Source: Lonsdalea britannica | GTDB taxonomy: Bacteria > Pseudomonadota > Gammaproteobacteria > Enterobacterales > Enterobacteriaceae | Reading direction: 5' to 3' | Length of the DNA stretch: 64,000 nt | NCBI RefSeq assembly: GCF_002111595.1 | Contig: NZ_LUTN01000012.1 | Coordinates: 61,327 to 125,326, forward strand | Part shown: positions 22,164-43,835 of the stretch, piece after piece | Layout of the letters: the number at the start of each line of letters is the position of its first letter | Position numbering within the stretch: the stretch's first letter is position 1 | Translations under genes and position numbers: made by a program | The notes under the pieces: generated by a model | What the model was told of the DNA's origin: nothing | The model's database searches: none | The model's input: only the letters and a program-made list of their open reading frames with translations

Positions 22164-22596
22164 GGCGTCTCCTCTTTTTTGAGGGGAAACCTGTTTCTCA
22201 GGGATGAAACAGGCGCGGTCGGCAATAAAAAGTCGACCGCGGAGCTTAAGACTGGATGCGGGCATATCATAGGCTCTGTGGAAAAAGATCGCTTCGGGAG
22301 TGACGGTCCGTCGTTTATTGATTCAAACACAGAGCCTGTGCTTCCTGGCATTAGAAGCGCTCGCCTCTGCCAAGTCGGCGGCCGTCGGCCATGGTATGGA
22401 AGAGAAGCCCGGCAATCCGGTAGGAATCAACACTTAGCGGAGTCGTTCGAGCAGGCCGATCTCCGCCGAAGAGTCGCTTCGAGATCAAAAAGTTTTCGCG
22501 TCTGCCAATCGGAAACTCGCGCCATAACGAGATCATTCACGATTCCACTTCATCTTCATGGACTCCCCCTGAACAGGGTCCTCTAGCTGGATGGTA
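22164..22596. other. Intergenic region between convergent gene runs, possibly a decayed element
   Basis: This 433-base stretch separates the rightward run ending at 22163 from the leftward run ending at 22597. A 10-base inverted repeat AGGCTCTGTG/CACAGAGCCT lies at 22271-22280 and 22328-22337. Both strands carry short frames with protein-like fragments (for example WREFPIGRRENF on the minus strand), but none is intact, and I cannot name them. A remnant of an insertion sequence is possible but not shown. No clear terminator was found for either gene run. Confidence 0.35.
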
Positions 22597-23628
22597 TCAG
22601 TCCAGAGAGAAAAAGAGTGTGTCAGAAAGCGAAGGATTACCGGTACGCAACAGCATAGTCCCTTGCAGGGGCTGCAACACTACCGCCGCCACAGTGCGCT
22701 CACGCCTGATATCACCGCTGTCCGCCACACAAACCGGCGGCGTACTGAAAAGATCAAAGCACATGTCAGGCCTGATCGCCGGCTGTTGCAGAAACTCTCT
22801 GGTCTGATCCAGCCGCAGTTGAGAGGAGTTTCGGGCGAAGATATTGATCTCATCCTGTGGGATAAAGTCCGCGTGCAGAAAATGATTCGTGTGCGCAGTC
22901 ACCGTGCCTTGCTCTGCTACACGCAGCTTATTATCAAGGCTTTCCACACAAACCGCCCGCCGACCATCGCAAAAGGTAAAAGATCGCGAGCTGGATAAGG
23001 GCAGTGTTGCAAGAGTTTCGAGAGCCTCGTCAACGCTGGCGCAGTTGTCCAGCAGATGACGGACGGCTAGATAAGGCGGAATACCTTCCTGCCATTTCCC
23101 CCCCAGCACCATATTCAGCCCGATGGCGAGGCCCGCGCTGTTCACCCCGAGGTAACCCAACAGCCCGGCAAAACTCAGCACCAATGAACGTCGCTGTGGG
23201 GTGATTATGTGCAGAACGCGAATAAAATCATCCAGATTGCCGTTAAGATCGACAGTTTGCGCCAGCAGAGGTTCGCCTTTGTGCGACGCCAGAGTCGAGC
23301 AATCGCCGCCGGTATTGATACGGTTATAACCCAAGATTTCCCGTCGAAGTTGCAACAGCCAGGCGAGATCGCTAGGAATGCCCGCTCCGATCGACAACCC
23401 ATTAATTTCTTCGGAAATATCAGGGAGCCAATGGCTCACCATCGCTCGGTAAGCAGCGATTTTTTCACGGAGGCAGTCCAGCGATATTGGGCGGTCACTC
23501 AGGGGTTGTAGGCGGCATAGCCCTTCATTAACAAACTGCCGCAGCGCGTCGCAACAGCGTTCACCGTGTTGAATGCCCCGTGACAGGGCATCTCCTTCCA
23601 GATGAATAATGAGATTGTCGCGACTCAT
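22597..23628 (-). CDS. C45-family acyltransferase/amidase (acyl-CoA:isopenicillin N acyltransferase-like)
   Basis: The 343-residue protein resembles the self-processing Ntn-hydrolase family of isopenicillin N acyltransferase. It has NTGGDCSTLA with the candidate N-terminal nucleophile Cys110, then LAQTVDLNGN, a GYLGVNSAGLAIGLN core and TAHTNHFL. These enzymes cleave their own chain before the Cys and then hydrolyse or exchange amides or thioesters. It is the last gene of the leftward run and overlaps the GNAT gene by four bases. In this pathway it could exchange an acyl group, remove a protecting acyl group, or release the product. Family placement is good; the reaction is inferred. Confidence 0.75.
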   Translation of the reverse strand: MSRDNLIIHLEGDALSRGIQHGERCCDALRQFVNEGLCRLQPLSDRPISLDCLREKIAAYRAMVSHWLPDISEEINGLSIGAGIPSDLAWLLQLRREILGYNRINTGGDCSTLASHKGEPLLAQTVDLNGNLDDFIRVLHIITPQRRSLVLSFAGLLGYLGVNSAGLAIGLNMVLGGKWQEGIPPYLAVRHLLDNCASVDEALETLATLPLSSSRSFTFCDGRRAVCVESLDNKLRVAEQGTVTAHTNHFLHADFIPQDEINIFARNSSQLRLDQTREFLQQPAIRPDMCFDLFSTPPVCVADSGDIRRERTVAAVVLQPLQGTMLLRTGNPSLSDTLFFSLD

Positions 23629-24239
23629 TCTGCTTTCGTCTCTTGGGAGGCGGACTGAGCAGCCTGCAACATAGCTTTAACGTCGGGCCATTCATGCGCC
23701 AATACACTGTAAAAGATCGCGTCACGGCGGCGATTGTCCGGCATAAAGTTAAAGCTACGCAGCGTTCCTTCTTCCGTGGCACCAATGTTGCGAAGCCCGG
23801 CACGAGCACGGGTATTCAGCACATCCGTTTTGAACTCCACTCGGATGGCCTTCAGCGTTTCGAACGCATGGCACAACAGCAGATATTTCGCGTGACGGTT
23901 GATGCCAGTACCGCGAAAGGCTTGCCCCAACCACGACCAGCCGATCTCCAACCGAGCCTCCTGCTCCGCCATCGAGCCAATGCTCATACTTCCGGCAACC
24001 TGCCCGGAAAGTTTGTCGATGATGGTGAACACCGCTCGGCTGCCGGACGCCTGATCGCGTAACATGGCATCAAAAAACGTCGAAAACTGCGCATCCGTAT
24101 CGACGCGGAACACAAAGTATTGCCAAATCTGGCTGTCACGCGCCAATTCGCGCATGGCTTGACGATCGCTTTCCTGTACTGCTCTTAGTAGTACTCGGTC
24201 ATTTTCCAGCGTTGCTGTAGCGTTCTGATTCCAGCTCAT
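23625..24239 (-). CDS. GNAT-family N-acetyltransferase (RimJ/RimL type)
   Basis: The 204-residue protein has the GNAT pattern: an N-terminal LRAVQESDRQAM, EIGWSWLGQAFRGTGINRHA containing the acetyl-CoA loop (QAFRGTG), and an ALNTRARAGLRNIGATEEG-like segment with the N-x-R-S helix. RimJ-type members acetylate amines, protein N-termini or antibiotics. Within this cluster it could acetylate a hydrazine or amine, as a protecting step or as self-protection, paired with the deacylase-like C45 enzyme that overlaps it. It lies 24 bases after the carrier-protein gene. Confidence 0.8.
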   Translation of the reverse strand: MSWNQNATATLENDRVLLRAVQESDRQAMRELARDSQIWQYFVFRVDTDAQFSTFFDAMLRDQASGSRAVFTIIDKLSGQVAGSMSIGSMAEQEARLEIGWSWLGQAFRGTGINRHAKYLLLCHAFETLKAIRVEFKTDVLNTRARAGLRNIGATEEGTLRSFNFMPDNRRRDAIFYSVLAHEWPDVKAMLQAAQSASQETKAE

Positions 24240-24263
24240 TTTTTCTGCCCTCTCTCGGTGGGT

Positions 24264-24536
24264 TTATACAGCAATGTATTTGCTCAAAATCTGAGTAACA
24301 TCGGCCAGGCTATTCATCCTGGCGAGGTCATCTTCGGTCAGAAAAGCCAGACTGATGTTCATCTCATGACAGAGTGACGTAATAAATAAGATCTTGTTCA
24401 ATGAGGTGAGTCCGTAGGCATCGCGCATATTCAGCGAAGCGTCTATCTGTTCAGCCGCTAACGGTGTCGTCAACGTGGCAGAGAGGCTTTTACGGGCAGC
24501 AGGTTCCAGCGCAGCAAAGGCGGTTTCAGCGTTCAT
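24264..24536 (-). CDS. Acyl/peptidyl carrier protein
   Basis: A 90-residue helical protein with AYGLTSLNKILFITSLC, where Ser45 is the likely phosphopantetheine site (LTSLNK in place of the common DS motif). It follows the acyl-AMP ligase gene by 11 bases. The pair is the natural loading unit for a small acid such as hydrazinoacetate. The tethered acid would then be open to the acyl-CoA-dehydrogenase-like enzyme at 37738. Confidence 0.8.
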   Translation of the reverse strand: MNAETAFAALEPAARKSLSATLTTPLAAEQIDASLNMRDAYGLTSLNKILFITSLCHEMNISLAFLTEDDLARMNSLADVTQILSKYIAV

Positions 24537-24547
24537 AGACAGTTTCC

Positions 24548-26044
24548 TTAAACAGAGGTGATGAGTTGTTGCTGGTAACGCTCAAAAATTATTTTACGCA
24601 ACGGCTTGAACTGTGATGACAGCAGGCCGTTTTCAATGGTGAACGGCTGTTCAGCAATAATGTAACGGGCGACATATTCATCTTTTTCTGCCGCCGTATT
24701 GGCTTTCTTTACTCCATCGTCGATGCCGGCAGCATCGGCAACGACACTAACCGGCGAGATCACTGCCACCAGCTCAGTTTGCTTCGGGCTGAAAATCACA
24801 CACTCCGCAATCAAATCACAGTTTTTCAGACGCGTTTCAATGGGATGTACATCGATCTTTTTGCCGTTACCCAGCACGATGACATTGTCAGCTCGTCCCC
24901 GGATATAGAGAAAGCCCTCTTCATCGACATAGCCCAAATCCCCGGTACGCACTCCGCCGTCGGCAGTGAACATTTTTTCCGACGCACCCGGATCCGCATA
25001 GAGATAGTGGGTGTTGACCGGGTAGCGGCTGTATACAATGATCGCGCCTTCCGTATCTATCTCCACCCGCTTATCTGACAGTACTTGCCCTACACTGCCG
25101 GGGCGGCTAGCGGCCGGGTGATTCTTGCTTACGATGCAGGTCTCGTTCATGCCATAGCCTTCGAACAATGGCAGCCCAATCTGATGAAACAGTCGCACTG
25201 TCGCAGGATCAGCCGGTGCGGATCCGGTCCACAAATAGCGGATCTTATTACCAAACAGACGCTGGCCTTGCGTCGTCATCGTTGCCACATCACCGTCCGC
25301 CTTCTCGATATGACGCCGAGCGGCATCAAAGACCGCTGGAACCCCCATCACCACGGTCGGGTTAAGCTGTGGCATAACGAAAAACGCCGCCTGATAGTTG
25401 GTTAGAATTATGTCGTGTCCAAATTTTAACGCGGAATAAATCCAGTAACGCTGTTGCAACAAGGACAGAGGCAGAAACACCAACAGGCTATCTTGTGGAC
25501 CATGAGTAAACAGGGTTTGCACATCGCGCAAAGAAGAATCGATACTGCCAACAGTGGCAGCCAGCCCTTTTGGCACGCCGGTGGAGCCAGAGGTGAATTT
25601 GACCGTTGTGGTTTCATCAGCGGCATAGCTGACCGGCGGTAATGTGGAGGGGTGTTGCGTGAGAAAAACATGAATTTCATCAATATAGCGGAGACTAGCT
25701 ATCTCGTGATTATGCGGCTTATCGGTGAAAAGCCATTTCAGTTGATAGCGTTGGACCAACGCTTCCGTCGCCTCAAATTTGCCCGGGTCAAACCCTGCGG
25801 TACGTACTTTGATACGCAGCGCCGCCAGGTCGAGCAACACCCATTCAAGGCAGTTATCTGCCAGAATACCTATCGTATCTCCGGCACGAACCCCTTGTGC
25901 CAGCAGGCCATTCGCCACCTGCCCTACCTTGTCGTAAAGCGCCGTCAGCGGGATGGTTTTGCGCTCGCTGAGGGTGGCGATAATTAGGTTTCCATCCGGC
26001 GAAGGCGGATGATTAACGATGTCATTAATCAGGGATGCACTCAT
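24548..26044 (-). CDS. Acyl-AMP ligase (FadD/ANL superfamily)
   Basis: The 498-residue enzyme has VKFTSGSTGVPKGLA, FEGYGMNETCIVS, VRTGDLGYVDEEGFLYIRGR and KKIDVHPIETRL, as in AMP-forming acyl-CoA and acyl-carrier ligases. The C-terminus ends KPLRKIIFERY rather than the amino-acid type NGKxDR. It overlaps the NRPS gene by four bases and precedes the carrier-protein gene, so it very likely loads that carrier. In the azaserine pathway, as I recall, a comparable enzyme activates hydrazinoacetate. That substrate is a reasonable hypothesis here because the hydrazinoacetate genes are in the same operon. Confidence 0.8.
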   Translation of the reverse strand: MSASLINDIVNHPPSPDGNLIIATLSERKTIPLTALYDKVGQVANGLLAQGVRAGDTIGILADNCLEWVLLDLAALRIKVRTAGFDPGKFEATEALVQRYQLKWLFTDKPHNHEIASLRYIDEIHVFLTQHPSTLPPVSYAADETTTVKFTSGSTGVPKGLAATVGSIDSSLRDVQTLFTHGPQDSLLVFLPLSLLQQRYWIYSALKFGHDIILTNYQAAFFVMPQLNPTVVMGVPAVFDAARRHIEKADGDVATMTTQGQRLFGNKIRYLWTGSAPADPATVRLFHQIGLPLFEGYGMNETCIVSKNHPAASRPGSVGQVLSDKRVEIDTEGAIIVYSRYPVNTHYLYADPGASEKMFTADGGVRTGDLGYVDEEGFLYIRGRADNVIVLGNGKKIDVHPIETRLKNCDLIAECVIFSPKQTELVAVISPVSVVADAAGIDDGVKKANTAAEKDEYVARYIIAEQPFTIENGLLSSQFKPLRKIIFERYQQQLITSV

Positions 26045-29000
26045 TCGCTCGTTCCTCGTGTCGCGATATGTGCAGCCATGCTCTGCACGGTATTAAACTG
26101 ATACATAGACTCCAGCGGTAGCGCCACGCCAAAGGTTTTACGCACAATAGTAAGAATGCGCAGCGCGCTCAGCGAATTACCGCCAACGCTGAAAAAATCG
26201 TGGGTACGGTTGAGCTGCCTGACTGGTAGAACAGACTGCCAGATGCTCTGCAACTGGTCTTCAATAGCACCATTTTCCTCGCTCCGTGCTTCTGGCTGCG
26301 CGACCGTATCGCTCAATGCCAGCTGGCTAAGTGCTTTGCGATCCACTTTCAGATTGCGATTCAATGGCAGCGCTTGATGCCAGCAAAAACGAGACGGGAT
26401 CATGTAATTCGGCAGATGCTGGTTGAGCGTCTGGCGTATCCGCTCCGGATTCAAACCCGCTTCGTCACCGACCAGATGTGCTACCAACATATCGCCGTTG
26501 GCACTTTTCACCGCCACCACAGCCGCCTCGTTAATCCCCGAAAGCGCTGCCAACGCGGCTTCGACGTCACCAGCCTCAATGCGGTAACCATTAACCTTGA
26601 TCTGCAAATCCACCCGCCCAAGGATCTCAATGTTGCCGTCAGGCAGATAACGTCCTAGATCGCCGGTGCGGAAGCTACGAGACCGAGTTTCCGGACTCTC
26701 AAGGTAACGCTCGCGGGTTCGCGGCTCATCACGCCAGTACCCCGGAGTAATTCCCATACCGCTGGCCAGGATCTCCCCTGCTACCCAGTCTGGGCAGAGC
26801 GTTCCGTCAGGATGGCAAATCAGGCTTTGGTTATTAGCGTTGGGACGACCGTAGGGAATTACTTGAGCTGCACAATTCTCAGCGCTAATCGGATGGCAGA
26901 TATTCCAGATGGTGGTTTCGGTAGGACCGCCGAGCGACCACTGACGGATCGCGGGCTGTTTCGCCAAGATCGCCGCAGGAAGGTTCGGAGGAATACGGTC
27001 GCCGCTCATCATCAGAAGACGCAACGATGACGGCATCGCATCGCCGTGATCGTGCATCATCCGCACAATGGCTGGCACCGAATTCCACACGCTAACCCGG
27101 TATTGAGCACACAGCTGCGCCCAATGTTCAGTATCGCCGCTTTTATCCGCATCAGGGATCACTAGCGCCGCACCCACCGACAGGGCACCGAAAAGATCCC
27201 ACACAGAGAGATCGAAATTTAAGGCACTGATGGCAAAAAAGCGATCTTCCGGTGTGATGTCAAAACGACGCTGGCAGTCATCCACCACATTGATCACATT
27301 GCGGTGCGTCACCATCACTCCTTTTGGCTGTCCGGTGGTGCCAGACGTATACAGCACGTAGGCCAGATCATCTGGTGTGGCCTCCGCATCACACGGCATC
27401 AGTGTCCAGGTTCCCGGCTGAGGACGGCGTAGATCGAACTGCGGCAGGCCGCAGTCTATATCGACATTCGTCAACACCAGTCTCACTTCACCATCTTGCA
27501 ACATATAATCGCGGCGAGCAGCGGGCAAGTGGGCGTCGATAGGCAAATAAGCTGCCCCTGCCAACACTATGGCCAGGATACCAATGACATGTTCCGGCGA
27601 TCGTTCTACCACCAGCCCCACCAGCGTATTGCGTTGCACGCCCTGTGATTTCAGCCACTGCACAACTTCAGCTACGCGATTGTAGAGCTCGCCGTAGCTT
27701 AACTGGCGGTCCAGCGTGCAAAGCGCCTGTGCGGCGGGCTGCTGTCGTGCACGGAGGACAAAATCATCCCCCAGCATACGCGGCGTCACTGCCGACTGAG
27801 TTGCGTTAACCGCTTCACGTCGCTGACGCTGATCGTCCGGTAGTAGGTCAAACTGCGACTGGTGCCAACTTTTCGCCTGGCAAAGCAGACTGATCATCCG
27901 CTGATAACCTGCCGCCAGTGCCGTAAAGAAGCCCTCAGGGAAGCTTTCCTCAACACCATCCAGCCGGATAATTAACTTGTCATGCTGTTCAAAAACGAAG
28001 ACATCTATCAGTACTTGCGGCGTTTGACTAAGGGTAAAAACTTCCTCACCAAACAGCTCCAGCGCATCTCCGTTTACCCCTTCCAGCGCGCCCAACGTGC
28101 AGTTAAACGTGTAGGGCGTTCGGGCGGCCGCCAGCCCGCGTTGACGGGCTAACTCCTGCATCACCTCAATGCCGGAAAAATGGCGATGGTCCACATCCTG
28201 ATGCAGGCGATGTTGTAGTGCGCTCGCTCGCTCGGAGAAAGTCAGTTGTGCATCGCGCATCACTTCCACCAACAGCGGAGCGGAGAAAGGCCCAATGGAG
28301 CGAAACGCCTGTGGGTGGATAGGACGGCGTTCTGAAACGGTAACATTCAGGGTGAAGTGATCCTGAGCCCCCCAGTAGTGGAGGGTCTCGGACCATGCGG
28401 TCATCAGCACAGCAGCGGGTGTCAGCTGATGCGCATGAATTTGTATCTTTAACGCTTGCCAGGGACCGGCTTCCAGCGACACTACCCGCTGGCTGAAACG
28501 TGATGTCAGATCGCTCGGCTTCGTGGTCTGCGGCAAATTGGGCGCAGGCGGCAGCATAGGGATGCGGGCCAGCCAGTAATCGCGTGAACGCTGCCAGGCG
28601 GGCTTCCCACGCTCATTTTGCAGAGCATCAATATGGTCGTTAAATGTCAAGTAACCGACCGCGTCCTCCTCCCCCTGATAATAGCGATACCAGTGATGGA
28701 ACAGCAGAAACATGCTGATACCGTCAACAATCATACCGTCGTGATTGATGAACAGTACCATCCGATCATCGGCGAGCAGCGCAACATTTACCTGCAACAG
28801 CGCGCCTTCTGTCGACAACATCAGATGGGATTTCTCGTCACGTAGACACGCCCGTGTCCGCTGTCGCTGTTCCTCCGGTAACCCACGCAAATCGTGGCGG
28901 ATAATCACGGGGACGTCATCACTGATAAACTGGGCATTGTCGTCTAAGATGCGTAGGCGCAGCGCAGAATGCGCCGCCACCACTTGCTGAAGCGCCTGTT

Positions 29001-29295
29001 CCAACCGCGCAACGTCCCAACATCCTTCGATTTCATGGCAGACTTGATTCGCCACTCCGCCACCGTCAAAAAGCCGTGAACGTCCGCGGTAATAGGCTTG
29101 CTGTAATGGCGTCAGTGAGAAACTGTCCGCACGCTGTTGCAGCCATCCCAACAGCGCTGCCTTATTTTCGCGCAGCGCCGCCACCAAAGACGGCGTAATA
29201 TTTTGCGTGGCGCCTTCCAGTTTCAGATTACCGTCTAGCTGGCTGATTTTCAGACCAGCCTCTTCAACTTGCTTTAACAGTTCTGCTGGGGTCAT
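26041..29295 (-). CDS. NRPS module TubC-Cy-A-T (predicted cysteine, heterocyclising)
   Basis: Domains of this 1084-residue protein in order: an N-terminal TubC-type docking domain (about 1-55), a heterocyclisation (Cy) domain (about 58-480), an adenylation domain (about 500-1000) and a carrier domain with Ser1041 in SVGGNSLSAL. The Cy signature DxxxxDxxS is Asp186, Asp191 and Ser194, in place of HHxxxDG. Reading the A-domain pocket by eye (FDLSVW, VWNSVP, LLMMSGD, WSLGGPTETTIW) gives about DLWNMSLIW(K), close to the cysteine code DLYNLSLIWK. Known Cy domains condense Cys, Ser or Thr and cyclise to thiazoline or oxazoline. No terminal TE domain is present; a separate type II TE is encoded at 43003. 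Confidence 0.9.
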   Translation of the reverse strand: MTPAELLKQVEEAGLKISQLDGNLKLEGATQNITPSLVAALRENKAALLGWLQQRADSFSLTPLQQAYYRGRSRLFDGGGVANQVCHEIEGCWDVARLEQALQQVVAAHSALRLRILDDNAQFISDDVPVIIRHDLRGLPEEQRQRTRACLRDEKSHLMLSTEGALLQVNVALLADDRMVLFINHDGMIVDGISMFLLFHHWYRYYQGEEDAVGYLTFNDHIDALQNERGKPAWQRSRDYWLARIPMLPPAPNLPQTTKPSDLTSRFSQRVVSLEAGPWQALKIQIHAHQLTPAAVLMTAWSETLHYWGAQDHFTLNVTVSERRPIHPQAFRSIGPFSAPLLVEVMRDAQLTFSERASALQHRLHQDVDHRHFSGIEVMQELARQRGLAAARTPYTFNCTLGALEGVNGDALELFGEEVFTLSQTPQVLIDVFVFEQHDKLIIRLDGVEESFPEGFFTALAAGYQRMISLLCQAKSWHQSQFDLLPDDQRQRREAVNATQSAVTPRMLGDDFVLRARQQPAAQALCTLDRQLSYGELYNRVAEVVQWLKSQGVQRNTLVGLVVERSPEHVIGILAIVLAGAAYLPIDAHLPAARRDYMLQDGEVRLVLTNVDIDCGLPQFDLRRPQPGTWTLMPCDAEATPDDLAYVLYTSGTTGQPKGVMVTHRNVINVVDDCQRRFDITPEDRFFAISALNFDLSVWDLFGALSVGAALVIPDADKSGDTEHWAQLCAQYRVSVWNSVPAIVRMMHDHGDAMPSSLRLLMMSGDRIPPNLPAAILAKQPAIRQWSLGGPTETTIWNICHPISAENCAAQVIPYGRPNANNQSLICHPDGTLCPDWVAGEILASGMGITPGYWRDEPRTRERYLESPETRSRSFRTGDLGRYLPDGNIEILGRVDLQIKVNGYRIEAGDVEAALAALSGINEAAVVAVKSANGDMLVAHLVGDEAGLNPERIRQTLNQHLPNYMIPSRFCWHQALPLNRNLKVDRKALSQLALSDTVAQPEARSEENGAIEDQLQSIWQSVLPVRQLNRTHDFFSVGGNSLSALRILTIVRKTFGVALPLESMYQFNTVQSMAAHIATRGTSE

Positions 29296-32581: not shown

Positions 32582-32611
32582 AATGTTTCGTTCCTAGAAA
32601 AATGCTGCGAC

Positions 32612-33988: not shown

Positions 33989-34004
33989 ACATAATCAAAG
34001 ATAG

Positions 34005-35267: not shown

Positions 35268-36582
35268 GGTCTACCTCAATATCTACAGTGATGGATGCAC
35301 GAACGTCTGCTTCCAGTAGGTTGAGCTCCGCCTCACTAGCAGCATCGATAAAGAAGGTAACGGCGCGATCGTCGGAAGAACGCAGCGCTGTGAGCGATTC
35401 GCCGCGTTGCTTGTGAACAAAAACAGCGCGTAATACCGGCGGATCCTGAAGCTGTCCCGGAAGAATTTCCGGCCAGGTCTGGTTATCCTCAATCCAACTT
35501 ACCTGTACATCAGGCCATCGCACATGCACGTCCCTTAGCACACCCGGCGTATGTTCCAGATAAACCTGGCGCGCTACACGCATTGGTATCGGATAACGCG
35601 CTTTCTCACCAAGCATGATTTTGATAATGGCGGACTCCAACGGCTCCCCACAGGCCAGCCGGTAAAGTGGCAGAATGCCGTCTCCCGGCGTGCGGGCAGC
35701 AATTTCCATCAGGTAAGGTTTGCCATCAAGGCTTACGCGCCACTCGGAATGGGCAATACCATCAGAAAACGCCAGCGCACTCAGCACCTGCCGGGTAGAT
35801 TGCAATAGCAGGGCATTTTCGAATCCCAATCCGGGCACGGTATGTGCTAGCTCCACAAAGGTGTTGCTGTGCTGGTCGGTGGTCATTTTGTGCGTTACGG
35901 AAGAGAATATGATTTCGCCATCCTGCACCAATGACTCCACCGAATACTCCTGCCCTTCTATCCGTTGTTCCAGCAGCAGGGTTTCATAAGCTGGATAATC
36001 CACCAGCGCCGCGCGTGCCTGCCGTTCGTTATCCACAGAAATGACGCCTGATGAGGAGTGCCGCGTCGCCGGTTTTACGATCAATGGCCAAGGCAGCGTA
36101 CTCCAGTCAATTTCCTCGCGCTTTTCCGGTGCAATCACTCGCGAAGGCGGGCTGAATGGACTTAAGTAAAAACGCTGCAAATATTTACTGCGGCACACGC
36201 GGGTTGCCCGCAGACCTGGGCTGTTCAGGCCTAACGCATCGGCAATGATTCCGGTCGGTTCCACCAAGGTTTCTCCTACCGCAAAAGCCCCCACGATATG
36301 GTACTGCTGCTGCCACTGTTGCAGCGCGGCCACGACACTGGGGTTAAAAGACGCTTCCCGATCCAGCGCTCCCTGAACATAGGCAATATCGGCGATCAAC
36401 CCAGTGATGCTGTGCTTATTCTGACGAGCGGCCTCAGCCCCCTGACGATAGGATTCCGGCGTGACGACCAGAATGGTAATGTCCCGGTTCGCCAGCTCAC
36501 GCAGGTAAAGTGAATTGCGGCATATGACCCAAAATGCGCCAGTCAGCACGAAAGCACAGGGCAAATCTTTTTCAGCGTTCAT
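35260..36582 (-). CDS. ATP-grasp ligase
   Basis: The 440-residue protein has the ATP-grasp pattern: PLIVKPATRHSSSGVISV (phosphate loop), LLEQRIEGQEYSVESLV, HSEWRVSLDGKPYLMEIAAR with the metal-binding Glu, and GDGILPLY. It resembles the carboxylate-amine ligases that make dipeptides and amides in natural products (BacD/DdaF-like). It should activate a carboxylate as acyl phosphate and join it to an amine or hydrazine. It follows the P450 by 19 bases and overlaps the transporter gene. The acid and amine partners are unknown. Confidence 0.85.
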   Translation of the reverse strand: MNAEKDLPCAFVLTGAFWVICRNSLYLRELANRDITILVVTPESYRQGAEAARQNKHSITGLIADIAYVQGALDREASFNPSVVAALQQWQQQYHIVGAFAVGETLVEPTGIIADALGLNSPGLRATRVCRSKYLQRFYLSPFSPPSRVIAPEKREEIDWSTLPWPLIVKPATRHSSSGVISVDNERQARAALVDYPAYETLLLEQRIEGQEYSVESLVQDGEIIFSSVTHKMTTDQHSNTFVELAHTVPGLGFENALLLQSTRQVLSALAFSDGIAHSEWRVSLDGKPYLMEIAARTPGDGILPLYRLACGEPLESAIIKIMLGEKARYPIPMRVARQVYLEHTPGVLRDVHVRWPDVQVSWIEDNQTWPEILPGQLQDPPVLRAVFVHKQRGESLTALRSSDDRAVTFFIDAASEAELNLLEADVRASITVDIEVDHD

Positions 36583-36601
36583 AAATAAACCTTGTAAGCC
36601 G

Positions 36602-37741
36602 TTAAAGGATCAGTTTGGGGATACGCGCGTTGCCAGATGGCAGATAGCCGGTGCAATGGAGCGACTTAATCGCTACAGCGTCATGCTGCCGCACCGCATC
36701 GAGAAAACCACTGGCAATCGCCACCGCCACACCTTGACCCGGGCAACGATGGCGTCCATTGCTAAAGGTGAAACAACGGCGGTCAGTGCGGTTTGGGATA
36801 AATAAGTCCGCCTGCGGGTTGGCCTGGGGATCTCGGTTGGCGGCAGCCAGCAACAGTAGTACTGTATCGCCCGCGGCGATTTCCTCACCGCGCCACCGGA
36901 ATGGCGCGGCGGCGAAGCGGCGGGTGTTCTGGATCGGCGCATCAAATCGCGCGACTTCTTCCACAAAGTCGTTCAGCGAGGCCTCGATGAATGATTGCGG
37001 ATAGCGCTGTGCTGCCAGTAGAGCATTGCCGATCAATCCGGCGGTGGCATCATACGTTTGCGAAAGTAAACCGATGCTATTTGCAATCAGTGCAGCCTGG
37101 TGCGTCCAGTCATCGGCCACCGCCGCATGCAGTAGCGCGGCCAGCAAGGTCCCTTCTTTGACCTGCTCAAGCTGACTGCCATAACGCGTGAGCAGTTGCT
37201 CCGCGGCTAAACTGGCTCGAGCCTGCTGTTCAGCGCTGGCAGAAGCAGGAATACAAAGTACAAATTCGGCGATTAATGCGCTCATTTCCGGCAGAGCGTC
37301 ATCACTAAAACCGCACAGCGACGCGACTATTGCGGCCGGAAGGGTAAATACCAGATCGTTAATTTCACCGTGCTGTTGCAAACCGCGAAGAGCGTTCGCA
37401 AATGCCTTTTGCTGCACCTGCTGCAAATCTGCGGAGGCGATCGCCTGCACGATAATGCTTTTCAACCGCTGTTGGTGCTCTCCTTCGCGCATCCGCACCA
37501 GATTACCGAAAATGTCGCCTGCCGCAGTGCCGACGAGGCCAACCGGAACGGGTTCCGAAATAGGACGCACCTGAAGCTGTGACGCCTCGAGAACCGCCGT
37601 GACCGAGGCCGCATCCGCAGCGATCCACAACTTTAGCTCCGGATCAAAACTGAACGGCTGCTCACGCGTCAGCATGGCGTACCAGCCATAAGGATTTTCA
37701 TGCTGAATCGCGCTGAAGGGATTAAGTGCAATATGGCTCAT
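36602..37741 (-). CDS. Cytochrome P450
   Basis: The 379-residue P450 has the haem loop FSNGRHRCPGQG with Cys333 as ligand, and the helix I region SQTYDATAGLIGNAL. The length is typical of soluble bacterial P450s. It is four-base-overlapped with the dehydrogenase gene. P450s in N-N pathways oxidise carbon or nitrogen; which is the case here is open. It differs strongly from the P450 at 15639. No ferredoxin gene is nearby. Confidence 0.9.
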   Translation of the reverse strand: MSHIALNPFSAIQHENPYGWYAMLTREQPFSFDPELKLWIAADAASVTAVLEASQLQVRPISEPVPVGLVGTAAGDIFGNLVRMREGEHQQRLKSIIVQAIASADLQQVQQKAFANALRGLQQHGEINDLVFTLPAAIVASLCGFSDDALPEMSALIAEFVLCIPASASAEQQARASLAAEQLLTRYGSQLEQVKEGTLLAALLHAAVADDWTHQAALIANSIGLLSQTYDATAGLIGNALLAAQRYPQSFIEASLNDFVEEVARFDAPIQNTRRFAAAPFRWRGEEIAAGDTVLLLLAAANRDPQANPQADLFIPNRTDRRCFTFSNGRHRCPGQGVAVAIASGFLDAVRQHDAVAIKSLHCTGYLPSGNARIPKLIL

Positions 37742-38931
37742 AGCAGATCCTCCCGGAGCTTAAGACGGTGGGTATCCAGTGCCGAGGCGATATTCATCAG
37801 CAGCGTTTCCGACGCACCTTCATAAATACGCAGTGGACGGATCTGCAGATAAAGCCGAGCAATAGCGCTGTCAGCCACCACACCAGCGGCCCCTAGCATT
37901 TGCAATGCATCATCAACAATGCGGCTCGCCTGTTCCGTGGAGAAGTATTTCGCCATTGCCGAGCTTTTACCAAACCCCGGCTCACTGTTGTCCATCTGCC
38001 AGGCTGCATGTGCCGTCATCAGCGTAGCTGCAGACAGTGTGATCTCCATTTTTGCCAAGGTGGCTTTCACCAGTTGTAAGTCAATGAGCCGCCCCTGGTA
38101 GATTTTTCTGAGCGAGGCGTGGCGTAGCGCAATATCCGCCGCGCGGCGGGCAAAACCGATAGCCGCGCTGGCGACCGTCATGCGAAAGCGATCCAGGGTA
38201 TCCAGCGCGATGATGAACCCCTGCCCCGGCTTACCCAGCAGGTTTTCCGCAGGAACCCTGACGCGATCGAAGTGCAGATGCGCCCAAGAGCGCGGAGCAA
38301 GGGCTTCCAGCGGCCTGTTGCAGATACCTGCCAGCGAGGCATCGACGATAAAGGCGCTCAGGCCTAATGGTCCCGGGCCTTCACCTGTGCGAGCAATGAC
38401 AATGAGGCAACCGGCAATGTCGCCTTGCGCAATCCAGGCTTTATCGCCACTCAGCAGATAATGGTCACCTTCACGTTCAGCGACAAGTGCCACTGCGGAG
38501 ACATCCGATCCCGCCTCCGGCTCTGATATGGCGAAAGCAGCCGCACAGTCACCGCTAGCGAGCCGGGGCAAATACAACTGGCGCTGCGCGTCGTTACCGT
38601 AACGGCGAATCACACTTCCGCTTAAGGTTTGAATCGACCAAGCGAAGTCCAGCAAATCATTGTGATAAGCCAGCGTCTGGCGAAATAAACACGCGCTACG
38701 CGCATCGGTGCTAAAGTGATGCTCCGGTCCGTCAAGGTGCGCCAGCCAACCAGCTCGGCCCAGCAGTTGCAGCAGACGTTTGCCCTGCGTCGCAGGATCC
38801 GCGCCGTCTTGTTGCCATGCAAATTGTTGGTGCTGGCACCAGCTATCCAGCGCCGCGATCTGTTCAATATGCTCTGGTTGGTAAAAAGGCACCGTTAACA
38901 TTGCATTATCATGACTGAATAGATTATCCAT
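37738..38931 (-). CDS. Acyl-CoA dehydrogenase-like flavoenzyme
   Basis: The 397-residue protein has FAISEPEAGSDVSAVAL, LLSGDKAWIAQGDIAG and LRIYEGASETLLMNIA, with the catalytic-type Glu of the YEG motif. In azaserine biosynthesis, as I recall, a dehydrogenase of this family oxidises carrier-bound hydrazinoacetate to the hydrazone. The same step is plausible here, with the carrier at 24264 or the carrier domain of the cupin-MetRS protein. The 77-base gap to the diiron oxidase gene is the largest in the operon and may hold an internal start signal. Confidence 0.88.
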   Translation of the reverse strand: MDNLFSHDNAMLTVPFYQPEHIEQIAALDSWCQHQQFAWQQDGADPATQGKRLLQLLGRAGWLAHLDGPEHHFSTDARSACLFRQTLAYHNDLLDFAWSIQTLSGSVIRRYGNDAQRQLYLPRLASGDCAAAFAISEPEAGSDVSAVALVAEREGDHYLLSGDKAWIAQGDIAGCLIVIARTGEGPGPLGLSAFIVDASLAGICNRPLEALAPRSWAHLHFDRVRVPAENLLGKPGQGFIIALDTLDRFRMTVASAAIGFARRAADIALRHASLRKIYQGRLIDLQLVKATLAKMEITLSAATLMTAHAAWQMDNSEPGFGKSSAMAKYFSTEQASRIVDDALQMLGAAGVVADSAIARLYLQIRPLRIYEGASETLLMNIASALDTHRLKLREDLL

Positions 38932-39008
38932 TGCGCAGCCCTGTATCCATGCTCTTCTCCGCAGCGTTGCCCTGTGAGATCGGCTGTTAAATGATTGTGG
39001 TGTGAAGA

Positions 39009-41189
39009 TCAGATCAGTAATTCGCTGTGATTTGTATTTTCAGGCACGTTCTCTGTTGGCAGATCAGTTTCAACATAAAGCGCAAAGGAAGCGTAGCCGC
39101 GCCAGATGCGCCGCCAGCGCTGCTGAACTTCGTCCTCGCTTAGACCGAGTTTACTGTCATCCAAATGGTCAATAATCAGATCAACCGCCTGCCGGGAATG
39201 CCCTGCGGAGAAATTATCAATAGTCAAATGCGCTTCTTCATAAATGGTGTCGAAACCATAGCGACGCAGCTTCTGGATCTCATGCATGCGCATTTCGCCT
39301 AGTCCCAGCATTTCAATCCCTAGGTTGTAGCCAAGCAGTTCTTCATAAAAAGTGTCGGGAAACTGCGATATTGCCAACTGATGCAGCGAAAAATCGTAGA
39401 TATCGGGCAGTTCTTCCTGCTGGCAGAAGGCTTTTTCACGGATGTGCGGCAGGCTGATATCCATGCTTTTCAGCACCCGCAGGATCAGAGTGATGTGATT
39501 TTTCTCATATTCACCCAGCCCCATTTCGTCGGCGTAGATCGCCAGCATTTTGCCATCAACGCGCCGGTGATTACGCAGGGTTCCACCGAACCGGTGCGCC
39601 CAAGCGCCATCGATCATGCTACCTAGCGCCATCAATTTTTGGCCAAAGAGCACACTTTCTCGATCGGGGATTTCCGTCAGGCGTTCATAAGGGTGCACCA
39701 GTTTTTCCCAGTAAATTTTTTCCATGCGCGCCAACAGCGCTTCCGGGGTGTAACTGAAATAGCTGGCGTCTGTGTAGCGCCCACTGCTGCCGGTGGTGAA
39801 AAGCGCTTCTGCTTGTTGCAACGTTTGCTCAACCCGCAGTTTTAATCGCGCCAGATGACAGGGGTAATGCTCGATATTCACCAGGCGCCACAACAGCTCC
39901 CGGTGATCGGGCAACTGCGCACTCTGCCAGACAACGTGCGATTGTAGAGAAGTATCTCGGCAGCGTTTTAGCCAGACTGCTGACTGCTCACTTCCTGCGT
40001 CCGTAAAGTCGCTGAGACAAATGTCATCCCCGCTTTGCGAATTGGCTATCCAGCGAGCCATGGTTGCCGCTTCTTGGGGGCTGAAAATACCAAACATTGA
40101 TCCGCCAAAACGGATCGCTTTCTGAAAACTGCATTCACCTGACGGTAACTGGCGAAAGTAAGGCGAGGCGCGTAGGGCGCGTAAAAATGTCTCCGTATCA
40201 GATAATTGCTCCGGACACTCCGCTAGGCTGCATTTTTCCAGACGGATACGCTTATGATGTTTACCTGCCAGCGGCAGATGACGACGAACAATCTCCGCCA
40301 TGCGGTCGTCCGGCGTGCGTTGCGCCAGTTGGCTTTGCAGCGCCAACAACATCTCGCTGTTGGCTAGCTCTAGATCTACGGCACGAACCACAGCATTCAG
40401 CATGCGTTTTTCGCTGACCGCCCCTTGCTCATCCTGCTGACAGTGGCGCAAGAATGTGGCCATCAGCGTATCAAGCTGCACCTGAGCGATAGGCGCGGGC
40501 AACCCCAGCAGCGCATCATCAAAACCGAGGCAGTAGTAAGCGTAATGAAGCCCCACCACTTCTGGCAGATGGCTGGCGGGCAAGCGGGACAACGCCAACC
40601 AGAAAGACGCCTGCCAGGCGGTGAGTTCAACACTTCCGAGGCATTCTGTGATGCCAGAAGTGTAAACTTCAGGTATGGCGATACCCATCGCGGCGAACTG
40701 GCGGTAACGCAGCCTTTGCTGGCTGTTGGCTATTTCACCATGCCCTTTCAGCGCAAAATTTTGTCCACCAAGGAGGCAAACCACTTCAGCGGGTTCGGTG
40801 GCGGGCTGCGAAACATAATCCAACCAACAGCCTGCAATCAGTGCTAACAGAGCACGCTGACGCAGTAGCTGTTTACGATCGTCATCATTCGCCTGCGACA
40901 GTCGCTCGACCCGCTTGAACAACGTGGTCTTTGCCGTGGCAATAAATGCGGGCAGTTCTACGGCGGTCAGCGGCGGAAAATCCGCTGTTGTACTGGCCAA
41001 TAAGGTCTCAGTTAACTGGAGGGCCAGCAGCTGTTGCCCTTCGCTCTCAATATCGCTGGCAAACGCTTTATACAGCGTCTTCGCGGACCCTTGTTCTAGC
41101 CACGCATCCAGCACAGGCTTCGCCTCCGGCGAAAAATGAAACTGTAAATAAGGAAGTGCCGTGGTGCAGTCCCTGATTGTCGTATTCAC
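39009..41189 (-). CDS. Large haem-oxygenase-like diiron oxidase (HDO)
   Basis: The last ~250 residues of this 726-residue protein carry the ligand set of iron-containing HDO enzymes: YADEMGLGEYEKNH, LLGYNLGIEMLG, and the terminal helix AHLTIDNFSAGH with His654, Asp658 and His664. Such enzymes (SznF, BesC, UndA types) N-oxygenate amines or guanidines, or cleave C-C bonds. In azaserine synthesis, as I recall, an HDO helps convert hydrazone to diazo. The N-terminal ~400 residues match nothing I recognise; they include two YYCLGFDDALLG-like helical stretches and may be a second, inactive helical domain. It overlaps the FabH-like gene. Confidence 0.8.
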   Translation of the reverse strand: MNTTIRDCTTALPYLQFHFSPEAKPVLDAWLEQGSAKTLYKAFASDIESEGQQLLALQLTETLLASTTADFPPLTAVELPAFIATAKTTLFKRVERLSQANDDDRKQLLRQRALLALIAGCWLDYVSQPATEPAEVVCLLGGQNFALKGHGEIANSQQRLRYRQFAAMGIAIPEVYTSGITECLGSVELTAWQASFWLALSRLPASHLPEVVGLHYAYYCLGFDDALLGLPAPIAQVQLDTLMATFLRHCQQDEQGAVSEKRMLNAVVRAVDLELANSEMLLALQSQLAQRTPDDRMAEIVRRHLPLAGKHHKRIRLEKCSLAECPEQLSDTETFLRALRASPYFRQLPSGECSFQKAIRFGGSMFGIFSPQEAATMARWIANSQSGDDICLSDFTDAGSEQSAVWLKRCRDTSLQSHVVWQSAQLPDHRELLWRLVNIEHYPCHLARLKLRVEQTLQQAEALFTTGSSGRYTDASYFSYTPEALLARMEKIYWEKLVHPYERLTEIPDRESVLFGQKLMALGSMIDGAWAHRFGGTLRNHRRVDGKMLAIYADEMGLGEYEKNHITLILRVLKSMDISLPHIREKAFCQQEELPDIYDFSLHQLAISQFPDTFYEELLGYNLGIEMLGLGEMRMHEIQKLRRYGFDTIYEEAHLTIDNFSAGHSRQAVDLIIDHLDDSKLGLSEDEVQQRWRRIWRGYASFALYVETDLPTENVPENTNHSELLI

Positions 41190-42109
41190 TTTTCTTTCCT
41201 TTTTTGCAACAGAACTGACGCTCGTGCGCCGGGAATACTCGCAGCCAGTTGGAAGATACCCTGAGCGGGGAGTCGTCCACTGACTTCAGCATCAATAAGA
41301 TTGATCAACGGATCGGCGGAAAAACAGTGGCCAATTCGGGCGATGTTGTCAGTGAACAGCTGTCCAGCGGCGTAGCCTGCCTGGCGTTCTTTCAAATTAC
41401 ACAGCGGCAGGTAAACGTTGGTATGAAATAAAAGGCTAATATCGCTGATATTAATTTGCGTCTCGGCAAACAATTGCTGATTAACTGCGATTGCCAGTGT
41501 TGAAGACAGTCCGTCGGCAACCGTGGAGAGATCCTGTTTTTCTGCACTGGCTAAGATGGTGAATCCCTCGCTGGGATGGCCGCTGCCAGTTATCACACAG
41601 CTTGCCGCCCCGTCAGAGAACAAGGCAAAATTTTCCAACCGTGGTTTTGCATCTGCCATGCAATCACTGGCCACTAGGAGAATCGCGTTTGATTGCCCAC
41701 TCGCAATCCGCGCCTGGGCCAGCCGTACGCCTTTCAGTAAATTGGTACAGCGCCCCAGCGTCACACCTGTTATTTCGGCCTGATTCAGCTGCAAAGCATC
41801 GGCAAAAGTACAAAGCATGCGGGTTTGCTCATCGGCATTGGCGGCCAGTGAGCTGCTGCAAAAAATGACCGTGTCTATGGGTTCAACCGAATCAGCTAAA
41901 GTTTTACGCGCACTTTCCAACGCCAACTGCATAAATGAGGATGTAGTCTTGCGTACCTCTCCCCATCCCCACATTTCAGGCAGCTCAGGCATAGAAAACA
42001 TTGCGGCACGCTGCTGCCAGCCTGGGAGCTGATCGTAAGGCAGTGTTTCCTCGCCCAGTTCATAATGGAGGGCGGTCATTTTTATCTGCGCAAAAACATC
42101 GCCAACCAT
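41186..42109 (-). CDS. FabH-like condensing enzyme/acyltransferase (KAS III family)
   Basis: The 307-residue protein has Cys121 in LGRCTNLLKG, His229 in FHTNVYLP and His261 in GHCFSADPLINL, the same GHC variant seen in region A. It shares a single base with the preceding lyase-family gene and four bases with the HDO gene. It could condense a tethered acyl group with a malonyl unit or act as an acyl transferase, as some KAS III relatives do. Its presence links regions A and B by enzyme type, although the genes are not close in sequence. Confidence 0.85.
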   Translation of the reverse strand: MVGDVFAQIKMTALHYELGEETLPYDQLPGWQQRAAMFSMPELPEMWGWGEVRKTTSSFMQLALESARKTLADSVEPIDTVIFCSSSLAANADEQTRMLCTFADALQLNQAEITGVTLGRCTNLLKGVRLAQARIASGQSNAILLVASDCMADAKPRLENFALFSDGAASCVITGSGHPSEGFTILASAEKQDLSTVADGLSSTLAIAVNQQLFAETQINISDISLLFHTNVYLPLCNLKERQAGYAAGQLFTDNIARIGHCFSADPLINLIDAEVSGRLPAQGIFQLAASIPGARASVLLQKRKEK

Positions 42110-42972
42110 CAGAGTTTTCCTTTCGTGAGAAGCTTCGCCACGTCAAAATAGCCGACAGACCGGTCAAGAAAAGTACAGCTTCCGTTTTGTTGAAGCTCCT
42201 GTAGCGCAGAGAAACAGCCGCCCAGCGCCGCGCGGGATAAGGCCGATCCCAGGCTAACGCGTGTGACGCCAAGGGCAAACAACTCGGATACGGTCAGCCG
42301 ATTCCCTGCGCCTAGCAGCACGTTTACCGGCACATTGACCGCACGACATACCGTTTTAATTGATTCAGCATCCGGCAGCGCCGGGGCATACACCACATCC
42401 GCACCTGCTTTTTCAAAGGCTTTCAGCCGTGCAATGGTGTCCTGAAGATCGTGGATGCCGTACAGAAAGTTTTCAGCACGTGCCGTTAAGGTAAAGGGGA
42501 AAGGTAGTCTTCTGGCCGCCTCCACAGCGGCTTCGACACGCATTAGTGAGGTGGAGAAATCTCTGATGGGTTGCTGTTCGTCGCCGGAATAATCTTCGAT
42601 AGAACAACCCACGGCCCCGGTGGCCGCTGCTGCCATGATGTTGCTGATAATGCCATCGGCATCGCTGGCAAAACCATCTTCCAAGTCGACAGAAAGGGGC
42701 AAATCGGTCACGCTGACTATCTGACTGGCATTTTCCAGAGTTTCTTCCAAGGTTACCGCCGCGGTGCGGTCAAGCTTTCCGAGGGAAAAAGCTAGTCCGG
42801 CGCTGGTGGTGCCGAGCGCAATAAATCCCGCCTTTTCCATTAAAATAGCCGTGCCGCGATCCCATGGATTGGGCATAACGAAAGGCACGCCGTTGGCATG
42901 CAGGCGTTTAAATAATTCACCTTTTAGTTTTTGTGTTTTAATAAACTGACTTGCCTCAATATTGACAGTCAT
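42109..42972 (-). CDS. Isocitrate lyase/PEP mutase superfamily enzyme
   Basis: The 287-residue TIM-barrel protein has VDLEDGFASD, CSIEDYSGD, TARAENFLYG and a C-terminal GVTRVSLGSALSRA. These fit the isocitrate lyase/PEP mutase superfamily (methylisocitrate-lyase or oxaloacetate-hydrolase-like branch). The PEP mutase signature EDKxxxxxNS is absent (SIEDYSGDEQQ here), so phosphonate chemistry is not supported. It might cleave or make a C-C bond to supply a small acid such as glyoxylate, from which glycine can be made. The assignment to a reaction is inference. Confidence 0.75.
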   Translation of the reverse strand: MTVNIEASQFIKTQKLKGELFKRLHANGVPFVMPNPWDRGTAILMEKAGFIALGTTSAGLAFSLGKLDRTAAVTLEETLENASQIVSVTDLPLSVDLEDGFASDADGIISNIMAAAATGAVGCSIEDYSGDEQQPIRDFSTSLMRVEAAVEAARRLPFPFTLTARAENFLYGIHDLQDTIARLKAFEKAGADVVYAPALPDAESIKTVCRAVNVPVNVLLGAGNRLTVSELFALGVTRVSLGSALSRAALGGCFSALQELQQNGSCTFLDRSVGYFDVAKLLTKGKL

Positions 42973-43002
42973 AGTTTTACCCTAATCTTTTCTTTAATAG
43001 AT

Positions 43003-43773
43003 TTATATTATTAAAGACTGGTGAAATATCTCACTATTGTTTTCGCTACTGATACAATCTCTAATAACAGAAGCGATTAGCTCGGGATTTTCGTTGAAGT
43101 AAAAATGATTTCCAGGAACGATATGGTTTTTATATTCCGTCGTTGTAACTTTCTTCCATTGCGTTATTGCTTCGAGCGAAACATGAGAATCATTGTCTCC
43201 GACAACGCTATAGATAGGTATTGAAAGTTTATTTTTAGGTTGATACTTATATCTACCTATCAATTCGAAGTCTTTCCGGATTTTTTTTAGAAAAAAACTG
43301 ATGAGCTCTTCCGTTATAGCACCTTCTTCCATTCCATTAAAAAAAAGGATTTCTTTAGAAAATTCTTGGTCTGACATAGCGTTCATCTTCAGAACTCTGG
43401 ATGAAGGCACGCCGGCTGGGGCTGCGCTAGAGGATACGATTAGCCCTTTTGGAGAAGCCCTCACCTTGAGAGCGACTTCATATGCCAATATTGCTCCCAT
43501 ACTATGGCCGAAAAGGTAATAATTATTAATGCCCGACCGGTCTATATTCTTAGCAATCTCTTCAGTCAGCGATTCCACACTGGAAGGATATTTTTCAGAA
43601 AAACGACGTCCTGTCCCAGGTAGACACATAGCCATGAGAGTGGCATCCAATTCCAAAAATTCTTGCCACTTCAAATAATCTTCTGAATTCCCTCCGGCAT
43701 GAGGAAAGCATAATATAAGAGGTTTAGAATCATTGTTTACTGGGAAGCTTTTAAAAAATTTTAGGTTTTCCAT
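43003..43773 (-). CDS. Type II thioesterase
   Basis: The 256-residue protein has CFPHAGGNSEDY near the N-terminus, the nucleophile elbow FGHSMGAI with Ser91, VVGDNDSHVS (Asp) and VPGNHFYF (His), the standard external thioesterase set (GrsT/YbtT-like). It removes stalled acyl groups from carrier domains or releases product. It is the first gene of the 21-kb leftward run. The upstream region is AT-rich with a candidate promoter. Its base composition is more AT-rich than the rest of the operon. Confidence 0.88.
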   Translation of the reverse strand: MENLKFFKSFPVNNDSKPLILCFPHAGGNSEDYLKWQEFLELDATLMAMCLPGTGRRFSEKYPSSVESLTEEIAKNIDRSGINNYYLFGHSMGAILAYEVALKVRASPKGLIVSSSAAPAGVPSSRVLKMNAMSDQEFSKEILFFNGMEEGAITEELISFFLKKIRKDFELIGRYKYQPKNKLSIPIYSVVGDNDSHVSLEAITQWKKVTTTEYKNHIVPGNHFYFNENPELIASVIRDCISSENNSEIFHQSLII

Positions 43774-43835
43774 AAACCATCCTGCCTATTTAAATATTTA
43801 CTGATTTTTATTTAAATTCATGCAAGGTGTAATCG

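Follow-up and report, generated by a model that had tools for sequence, protein, structure and literature searches.

Azaserine (O-diazoacetyl-L-serine), which antagonises glutamine and serves as a natural source of carbenes, is reported from a few actinomycetes. The gene table in PMC10445470 gives the azs cluster of Streptomyces fragilis as azsR, azsA, azsB (thioesterase), azsC (isocitrate lyase), azsD (3-oxoacyl-ACP synthase), azsE (iron-containing redox enzyme), azsF (acyl-CoA dehydrogenase), azsG (cytochrome P450), azsH and azsI (saccharopine dehydrogenases), azsJ (ATP-grasp), azsK (major facilitator superfamily, MFS), azsL (monooxygenase), azsM (FAD oxidoreductase), azsN (cupin, tRNA ligase and carrier), azsO (heterocyclization, adenylation and carrier domains; Cy-A-carrier), azsP (AMP-binding), azsQ (carrier), azsS (acetyltransferase), azsT (C45) and azsU (phosphopantetheinyl transferase, PPTase). 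We analyzed a 64,000-nucleotide stretch of Lonsdalea britannica DNA (contig NZ_LUTN01000012.1, positions 61,327 to 125,326; hereafter the window) and found 16 open reading frames on the same strand that form one operon (22597-43773, minus strand) with intergenic gaps of -8 to +77 bases. With a probability of about 0.82, we read them as an azaserine-type operon that is collinear with Streptomyces azs, with azaserine or a close derivative as the predicted product and lysine, glycine and serine as the predicted precursors.

The window operon corresponds to azsB-G, azsJ-Q, azsS and azsT, with 16 of 16 families in the order of the published S. fragilis table; families and order were taken from that table, and AzsE (P0349) is the one S. 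fragilis protein that was compared by sequence. For the gene-by-gene sequence comparison, which covered 16 loci including the window, the annotated cluster on pSA3239 of Streptomyces lavendulae was used as reference; it holds counterparts of all 16 window genes in order, at 35-63% identity, and adds azsH, azsI and azsU. Domain families were assigned by Pfam and NCBIfam searches of the window proteins (E value 1e-3). The genes and their domains, listed from 5' to 3' of the operon, are as follows.

43003..43773, minus strand: azsB-type thioesterase; PF00975 at 1.5e-34; 35% identical to S. lavendulae, 67% to the same-genus genome G002.
42109..42972, minus strand: azsC-type member of the isocitrate lyase/phosphoenolpyruvate (PEP) mutase superfamily; PF13714 at 2.4e-70; nearest solved structure 4lsb, a lyase/mutase, at 2.7e-71.
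41186..42109, minus strand: azsD-type KAS III homologue; PF08545 at 9.5e-07; 42% identical to S. lavendulae; no PDB sequence match at 1e-3.
39009..41189, minus strand: azsE-type predicted diiron heme-oxygenase-fold (HDO) protein; PF14518 at 1.1e-13, residues 528-698.
40290..41147, minus strand: AzsE residues 15-300, the N-terminal half, for which a second HDO-type fold is predicted; none of its His residues is 90% conserved.
39060..39920, minus strand: C-terminal HDO domain of AzsE, residues 424-710; invariant E555, H565, H654, D658 and H664.
37738..38931, minus strand: azsF-type acyl-CoA dehydrogenase homologue; PF00441 at 4.8e-37; 51% identical to S. lavendulae.
36602..37741, minus strand: azsG-type cytochrome P450; PF00067 at 1.9e-07; heme-Cys stretch FSNGRHRCPG.
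35260..36582, minus strand: azsJ-type ATP-grasp ligase, L-amino-acid-ligase-like; PF13535 at 3.8e-14.
34005..35267, minus strand: azsK-type MFS transporter; PF07690 at 8.9e-40.
32612..33988, minus strand: azsL-type predicted lysine N6-monooxygenase; PF13434 (Lys/Orn N-monooxygenase) at 1.2e-95.
31517..32581, minus strand: azsM-type FAD oxidase of the DAO family; PF01266 at 9.3e-24.
29292..31523, minus strand: azsN-type fusion of cupin, methionyl-tRNA synthetase (MetRS) and carrier; PF09334 (tRNA-synt_1g) at 9.2e-63, PF07883 (cupin) at 1.7e-12.
29319..29531, minus strand: carrier domain of azsN, residues about 665-735, Ser695 in GATSL; placed by alignment, with PF00550 precomputed on homologues.
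26041..29295, minus strand: azsO-type nonribosomal peptide synthetase (NRPS), Cy-A-carrier; Condensation, AMP-binding and PP-binding; D186/D191, N398, code DLWNMSLIW.
24548..26044, minus strand: azsP-type acyl ligase; PF00501 at 6.2e-41; 53% identical to S. lavendulae.
24264..24536, minus strand: azsQ-type stand-alone carrier of 90 aa, named by homology and position; 46% identical to S. lavendulae; no Pfam or NCBIfam match.
23625..24239, minus strand: azsS-type GNAT protein, predicted N-succinyltransferase; PF13302 at 6.4e-18; 63% identical to S. lavendulae.
22597..23628, minus strand: azsT-type C45 hydrolase; PF03417 at 1.6e-22, NF040521 at 3.5e-62; 53% identical to S. lavendulae.

The following features of azaserine clusters were found in the window: the trio AzsL, AzsM and AzsN, the hydrazonoacetyl set AzsS, AzsP, AzsQ, AzsT and AzsF with the transferase AzsD, the thioesterase AzsB, the HDO protein AzsE and the P450 AzsG. 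Since five of the six enterobacterial loci compared (the window included) carry all 16 genes in the same order, the grouping of these genes is not due to chance. The initial annotation, made from the letters alone, had proposed a single operon with these family labels, and the Pfam and NCBIfam results agree with it; its inventory was right for the remaining genes and overlooked the gene at 42109-42972 and the C-terminal carrier domain of azsN. It had also taken the monooxygenase, DAO oxidase and cupin-MetRS protein as a set for hydrazinoacetate, which homology to AzsL, AzsM and AzsN supports, and had correctly named azaserine as a relative.

We then aligned AzsN with P0019 of Glycomyces harbinensis and others, and found that HLGH and KFSTS of the synthetase part, HQHDE of the cupin and Ser695 of the carrier are all kept. 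The carrier domain lies below the 1e-3 Pfam cut-off on the window protein; close homologues, P0008 among them, have a precomputed PP-binding assignment. An extra carrier domain in AzsN is tied to azaserine clusters in PMC10445470. The azsN gene lies directly upstream of azsO, and the two overlap by 4 bases. A separate MetRS gene is present in the genome (G000:C3:190799-191860, 25% identical), so the azsN protein was rejected as the MetRS of the cell, and charging of tRNA, named in the initial annotation as a finding that would speak against it, is unlikely.

AzsO was aligned in 122 rows, comprising the window protein, its 120 best database matches (one of which is the window's own protein) and Sinorhizobium meliloti. 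In the Cy domain, Asp186 and Asp191 of the DxxxxD motif are kept, both Asp being found in 122 of 122 rows, and Asn398 replaces the Thr of heterocyclising domains, as in 119 of the 122 rows, P0141 of G. harbinensis included. These residues are needed for ester formation according to PMC10445470. A second site is Asn in 91 rows and Asp in 31, the window (Asp431) and G. harbinensis being among the latter. The adenylation code DLWNMSLIW is the same as that of P0141 and occurs in 64 of the 122 rows, among which S. fragilis AzsO is not included; its positions were placed by motif, following the PheA structure. One AzsO match is labelled Salmonella enterica (P0135; name as in the source).

The initial annotation had held that the other 13 genes elaborate a new N-N compound. 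In such a compound, serine could be replaced by another amino acid, or a further scaffold could be added. Some uncertainty of substrate prediction is in favour of this, in that the adenylation code resembles a Cys code and antiSMASH gives the published AzsO a Cys-type call. Yet that AzsO loads Ser in vitro (PMC10445470), the window code is that of G. harbinensis, and the azaserine set accounts for 16 of 16 genes. We therefore regard a new compound as improbable: the operon has the genes of the published azaserine cluster in the same order, and a described cluster of the same gene content, which the initial annotation itself had named as counter-evidence, exists in actinomycetes.

Every reaction that follows is assigned to this organism by homology to enzymes that were assayed in other bacteria, the direct evidence being gene set, order, domains, diagnostic residues, insertion and tree. 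AzsL would hydroxylate lysine at N6, AzsN would link N6-hydroxylysine to glycine through an N-N bond, and AzsM would remove the lysyl part to give hydrazinoacetate. A monooxygenase that takes only ornithine was another finding named in the initial annotation as speaking against it; among the solved relatives of AzsL, lysine- and putrescine-hydroxylating enzymes rank above ornithine enzymes, a ranking by sequence that does not settle the substrate. AzsS is then predicted to succinylate hydrazinoacetate, and AzsP to load succinyl-hydrazinoacetate on the carrier AzsQ, where AzsT would take succinate off and AzsF would oxidise the hydrazine to the hydrazone. AzsD may shift the hydrazonoacetyl group from AzsQ to the AzsN carrier domain, while the A domain of AzsO would load serine and its Cy domain would form an ester instead of a ring. 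The thioesterase AzsB would release O-hydrazonoacetyl-serine; in PMC10445470, AzsB frees the finished ester from the NRPS carrier in vitro. A final two-electron N-oxidation, for which AzsE is the favoured candidate, would give the diazo group, AzsK would export the product, and AzsJ may add an amino acid. The carriers could be activated in trans by a PPTase elsewhere in the genome, in which three ACPS-family matches lie above the cut-off. For AzsC, a supply of succinate was suggested earlier. We also considered a phosphonate PEP mutase for 42109-42972 and rejected it, the match to 4lsb (2.7e-71) being far better than those to true PEP mutases (1e-5 to 3e-7) and azsC having the same place in the azs cluster.

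BacD and BacE act in bacilysin formation as ligase and exporter, and by analogy the end product could be an azaserine-containing dipeptide, with AzsJ joining an amino acid and AzsK exporting the result. AzsJ matches the L-amino acid ligase BL00235 (3vot, 1.8e-13) and, weakly, the alanine-anticapsin ligase BacD (0.001); azsJ and azsK are both present in eight and both absent in five of the 13 azsE-bearing loci, and two Streptomyces hydrazine-synthetase loci that lack the azaserine set (L048 7159-10015 and L049 24040-26561) have an ATP-grasp gene directly beside an MFS gene. However, the eight loci come from two lineages only (six enterobacteria and two Streptomyces), so that the co-occurrence is weak evidence, and two loci lacking azsE have weak azsJ-like matches without azsK. 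Moreover, S. fragilis has azsJ and azsK, yet its cluster yields free azaserine in S. albus (PMC10445470). The dipeptide is thus a tentative proposal with the odds against it, and azaserine or a close derivative is the preferred product.

In the published work, the diazo-forming enzyme has not been identified (PMC10445470, in which neither AzsE nor AzsG worked in vitro; PMC13061610). The structure model of the window AzsE (pLDDT 86.1) predicts a double heme-oxygenase-fold protein with conserved candidate His ligands in the C-terminal domain only. AzsE has no PDB sequence match at E <= 1; compared with the HDO N-oxygenases SznF, HrmI and RohS, it is 10-16% identical and has an extra N-terminal half of the same predicted fold. 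The metal-ligand spacing of SznF served as background in this comparison. In the cluster of the S. meliloti plasmid pSmeSM11b, AzsE is present and no AzsG-like P450 was matched in a search that covered this one 181-kb plasmid, a scope that weakens the argument for the HDO protein. AzsE is favoured as the candidate hydrazone N-oxidase that would form the diazo group. An HDO as the common N-oxidation enzyme was already proposed in PMC13274452, and what is new relative to that proposal is the P450-free Sinorhizobium cluster and the double-domain model of AzsE.

The S. meliloti cluster shares 11 of the 16 genes with the window, including AzsN with its carrier, AzsO and AzsE; azsB, azsC, azsG, azsJ and azsK have no match on the plasmid, and two further NRPS genes lie alongside. 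There (L033 1529-31575, on a conjugative plasmid) the azs core stands with these two NRPS genes, an MbtH-like gene and a PPTase gene, an arrangement also seen on other Sinorhizobium plasmids, and its product is perhaps a longer peptide containing the same unit. On a Mesorhizobium symbiosis plasmid (L047, 11814-16986), a hydrazine-synthetase-like gene and an N-hydroxylase lie among nif genes.

The S. noursei nng cluster, which holds 13 of the 16 genes (all except azsC, azsJ and azsK), bears on a rival reading, in which the operon leads by way of hydrazonoacetyl-serine to N-nitroglycine or to another nitramine or nitrosamine. We use nngJ for the azsG-like P450 and nngS for the second P450, the letters for HDO and P450 being inconsistent in PMC13274452. 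According to that paper, nng shares most azs genes, the extra P450 NngS and the hydrolase NngA are essential and NngJ is not, and S. noursei produces azaserine as well. The window AzsG is 47% identical to the nngJ-type P450 of S. noursei. Position and family served to assign NngS (L067:8865-10121) and NngA (L066:5895-6650) on the S. noursei contig, and both were searched by tblastn against the 16 loci. NngS has a 90% match in S. ipomoeae and otherwise weak P450 matches, those in the window being 30-34% over 81-100 residues; a P450 that belongs to the neighbouring gene set (15639-16976) is similar to NngS over just 81 residues (34%). NngA has no match at 1e-3 outside S. noursei. Without counterparts of NngS and NngA, the operon is of the azaserine rather than the N-nitroglycine type, and a nitramine or nitrosamine product is very improbable.

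All 16 genes were found in order in the window, G002, Erwinia psidii, Enterobacillus tribolii and G018, and the Erwinia mallotivora contig, which stops inside azsN, has the first 11. Besides S. noursei, 13 genes are present in Pseudomonas sp. S30 (again without azsC, azsJ and azsK) and in S. ipomoeae (without azsJ, azsK and azsS), and 10 in A. flavalba, leaving out a match to AzsO in the A domain only; L029-L031 lack azsE and are other clusters. Among the database matches listed (for AzsE, 120 of 471), source names include Dickeya zeae, D. oryzae, Pantoea stewartii, Lonsdalea, Musicola paradisiaca, Photorhabdus, Xenorhabdus bovienii and Serratia; several of these host genera have roles in plant disease. 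In genomes sampled at one per species, AzsE occurs in 1 of 394 from the order (the window's own) and, with the window's own counted, in 4 of 392 from the family and 2 of 5 from the genus. None of 20,395 E. coli records matched the operon by megablast. The AzsE of G002 agrees with the Lonsdalea protein P0244 at 726 of 728 positions; that of G018 is the same as a Musicola paradisiaca protein.

In the AzsE tree (38 rows, midpoint root), the gammaproteobacterial rows form one side of a branch (100/99) and are joined to a Glycomyces group that includes G. harbinensis (99/96). The window groups with Dickeya zeae (100/96), and G002/Lonsdalea with Pantoea stewartii (100/99), which suggests transfer of azs among enterobacteria. 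The flanks of the operon were compared with four same-genus genomes (G001 to G004), and two features were placed at its site.

22164..44771, no strand: block without counterpart at the same site in the same-genus genomes G004 and G001, by flank comparison.
44854..44930, minus strand: tRNA-Asp, 3' side towards the block, with a terminator-like hairpin at the right border.

The counterparts of window positions 22163 and 44772 are only 79 bases apart in G004, and G001 has about 1.3 kb of other sequence at the site. Window 44368-44771 has a counterpart at the dnaQ site of G002, and the insertion may therefore stop near 44368. The azs copy of G002 lies elsewhere (0.75 Mb, its dnaQ being at 2.93 Mb); between window and G002, mltD is 97% and DnaQ 95% identical, and the 16 azs proteins 67-90%. 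In the other 15 loci, none of 32 flank proteins has a match at 1e-15 that exceeds 35% identity. The simplest account is a separate acquisition of the two azs blocks by transfer. An exact-match scan gave no direct repeats of at least 10 bases between the block borders, and no integrase was identified among the window-region reading frames searched for families. Hairpin sequences resembling the tRNA-Asp terminator flank the G001 sequence (L088, about 5506-6801), and insertions may thus have occurred repeatedly at this site. Within the operon, GC content is 0.381 in the thioesterase gene (the lowest) and 0.451 in the monooxygenase gene, compared with 0.527 overall; the thioesterase gene at 43003-43773 is also the most divergent of the 16 between window and G002 (67%) and possibly has a different history.

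On the other side of the block, window 1013-22163 (plus strand) carries a second gene set, which looks biosynthetic by its families: a pyridoxal phosphate-dependent decarboxylase, three KAS III-like proteins (two weak or below the cut-off), three AMP-ligases, two acyl-CoA dehydrogenase-like proteins, an alpha/beta hydrolase, a P450, a DUF2807 protein, a sulfotransferase, an MFS protein and a condensation-domain protein. Its presence at the same place in G001 and, in the stretch fetched, in G004 indicates that it is older than the azs block. A radical SAM protein (51563-52990, minus strand) lies within a minus-strand gene run at 49.4-61.8 kb.

Several points weigh against the reading of the operon as an azaserine cluster gained by insertion. 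Production of azaserine by the strain is a prediction from its genes, and the last oxidation is not assigned to an enzyme in the azaserine clusters of the papers cited here. Identity to proteins of proven producers is only moderate (46-59%): 59% for AzsN (P0019), 53% for AzsO (P0141) and 47% for AzsE (P0260) of G. harbinensis, and 46% for S. fragilis AzsE (P0349). AzsO keeps Asp431, unlike S. fragilis (Asn), though this is the same as in G. harbinensis. No match to azsH, azsI or the PPTase gene azsU was found in the window or the other gammaproteobacterial loci examined. The S. meliloti core beside extra NRPS genes may make a product other than azaserine, and the loci were mostly picked via azsN or azsE, so that clusters with azsG and without azsE could not show. 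The AzsE tree is weakened by the long branches that lead to S. meliloti, Pseudomonas, A. flavalba and Natronoglycomyces and by its midpoint root, and the insertion evidence is weakened by the stretches of G002 (38 kb) and G003 (9.4 kb), whose left flanks are unmatched and uninformative on the left border. Finally, no cluster regulator was identified within the 16 genes, LuxR not having been sought beyond them. The last point would also fit an operon that is silent or decayed in this strain, but all 16 frames are open and of full length relative to their homologues, and four further enterobacterial loci carry the set intact; we consider a silent or decayed operon unlikely. As a separate observation, the azsH/azsI pair, thought to recycle a lysine by-product, is present in 4 of the 16 loci, all actinobacterial, and has no match in seven gammaproteobacterial loci (that of E. 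mallotivora is truncated, but beyond the place of azsH and azsI).

The initial annotation knew of no enterobacterial cluster of this kind. In open-licence PMC full texts, we likewise found no description of an azaserine cluster in Erwinia, Dickeya, Photorhabdus, Serratia or Lonsdalea; however, PMC13061610 reports 129 related clusters 'spanning Actinobacteria and Proteobacteria', and supplementary Fig. S1 of PMC10445470 covers about 50 clusters. These two lists may already include enterobacterial members. The azaserine-type pathway itself is already known, and what is added is the enterobacterial host and leverage on the open diazo step. If productive, the intact enterobacterial clusters would widen the known sources of azaserine, provide enzymes from a Gram-negative host and suggest a chemical weapon in plant- and insect-associated bacteria. 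With enterobacterial AzsE and AzsG and the P450-free Sinorhizobium cluster, the choice between AzsE and AzsG becomes directly testable, and a dipeptide, if true, would be a bacilysin-like delivery form of a glutamine analogue. Taken jointly, plant- and insect-associated enterobacteria may have acquired and passed on a complete diazo-antibiotic pathway in which the double-HDO AzsE is the diazo oxidase and AzsJ and AzsK give an exported, bacilysin-like azaserine dipeptide, a combination that we consider doubtful as a whole.

Compared with known systems, the hydrazinoacetate trio is common to the window and the s56-p1 cluster (spb38-40), whereas Spb40 has no carrier domain and the remaining steps differ (PMC10445470). 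The tri cluster of Kitasatospora shares the hydrazonoacetyl-carrier steps (homologues of Tri26-31, 22, 13 and 14; same source), whereas triacsin needs a polyketide synthase (PKS) and its Tri28 lacks a carrier domain (PMC11705231). Triacsin as product was rejected, no PKS family except the KAS III homologue being found among the 16 proteins at E 1e-3. The nng clusters of S. noursei and S. yunnanensis add NngS and NngA, and the window operon adds azsC, azsJ and azsK. It differs from azs by being without azsH, azsI, azsU, azsR and azsA and by its enterobacterial host. With azs of S. fragilis and aza of G. harbinensis, it shares the 16 families in order, the AzsN carrier domain, the Thr-to-Asn Cy-A-carrier NRPS and the presence of both an HDO protein and a P450.

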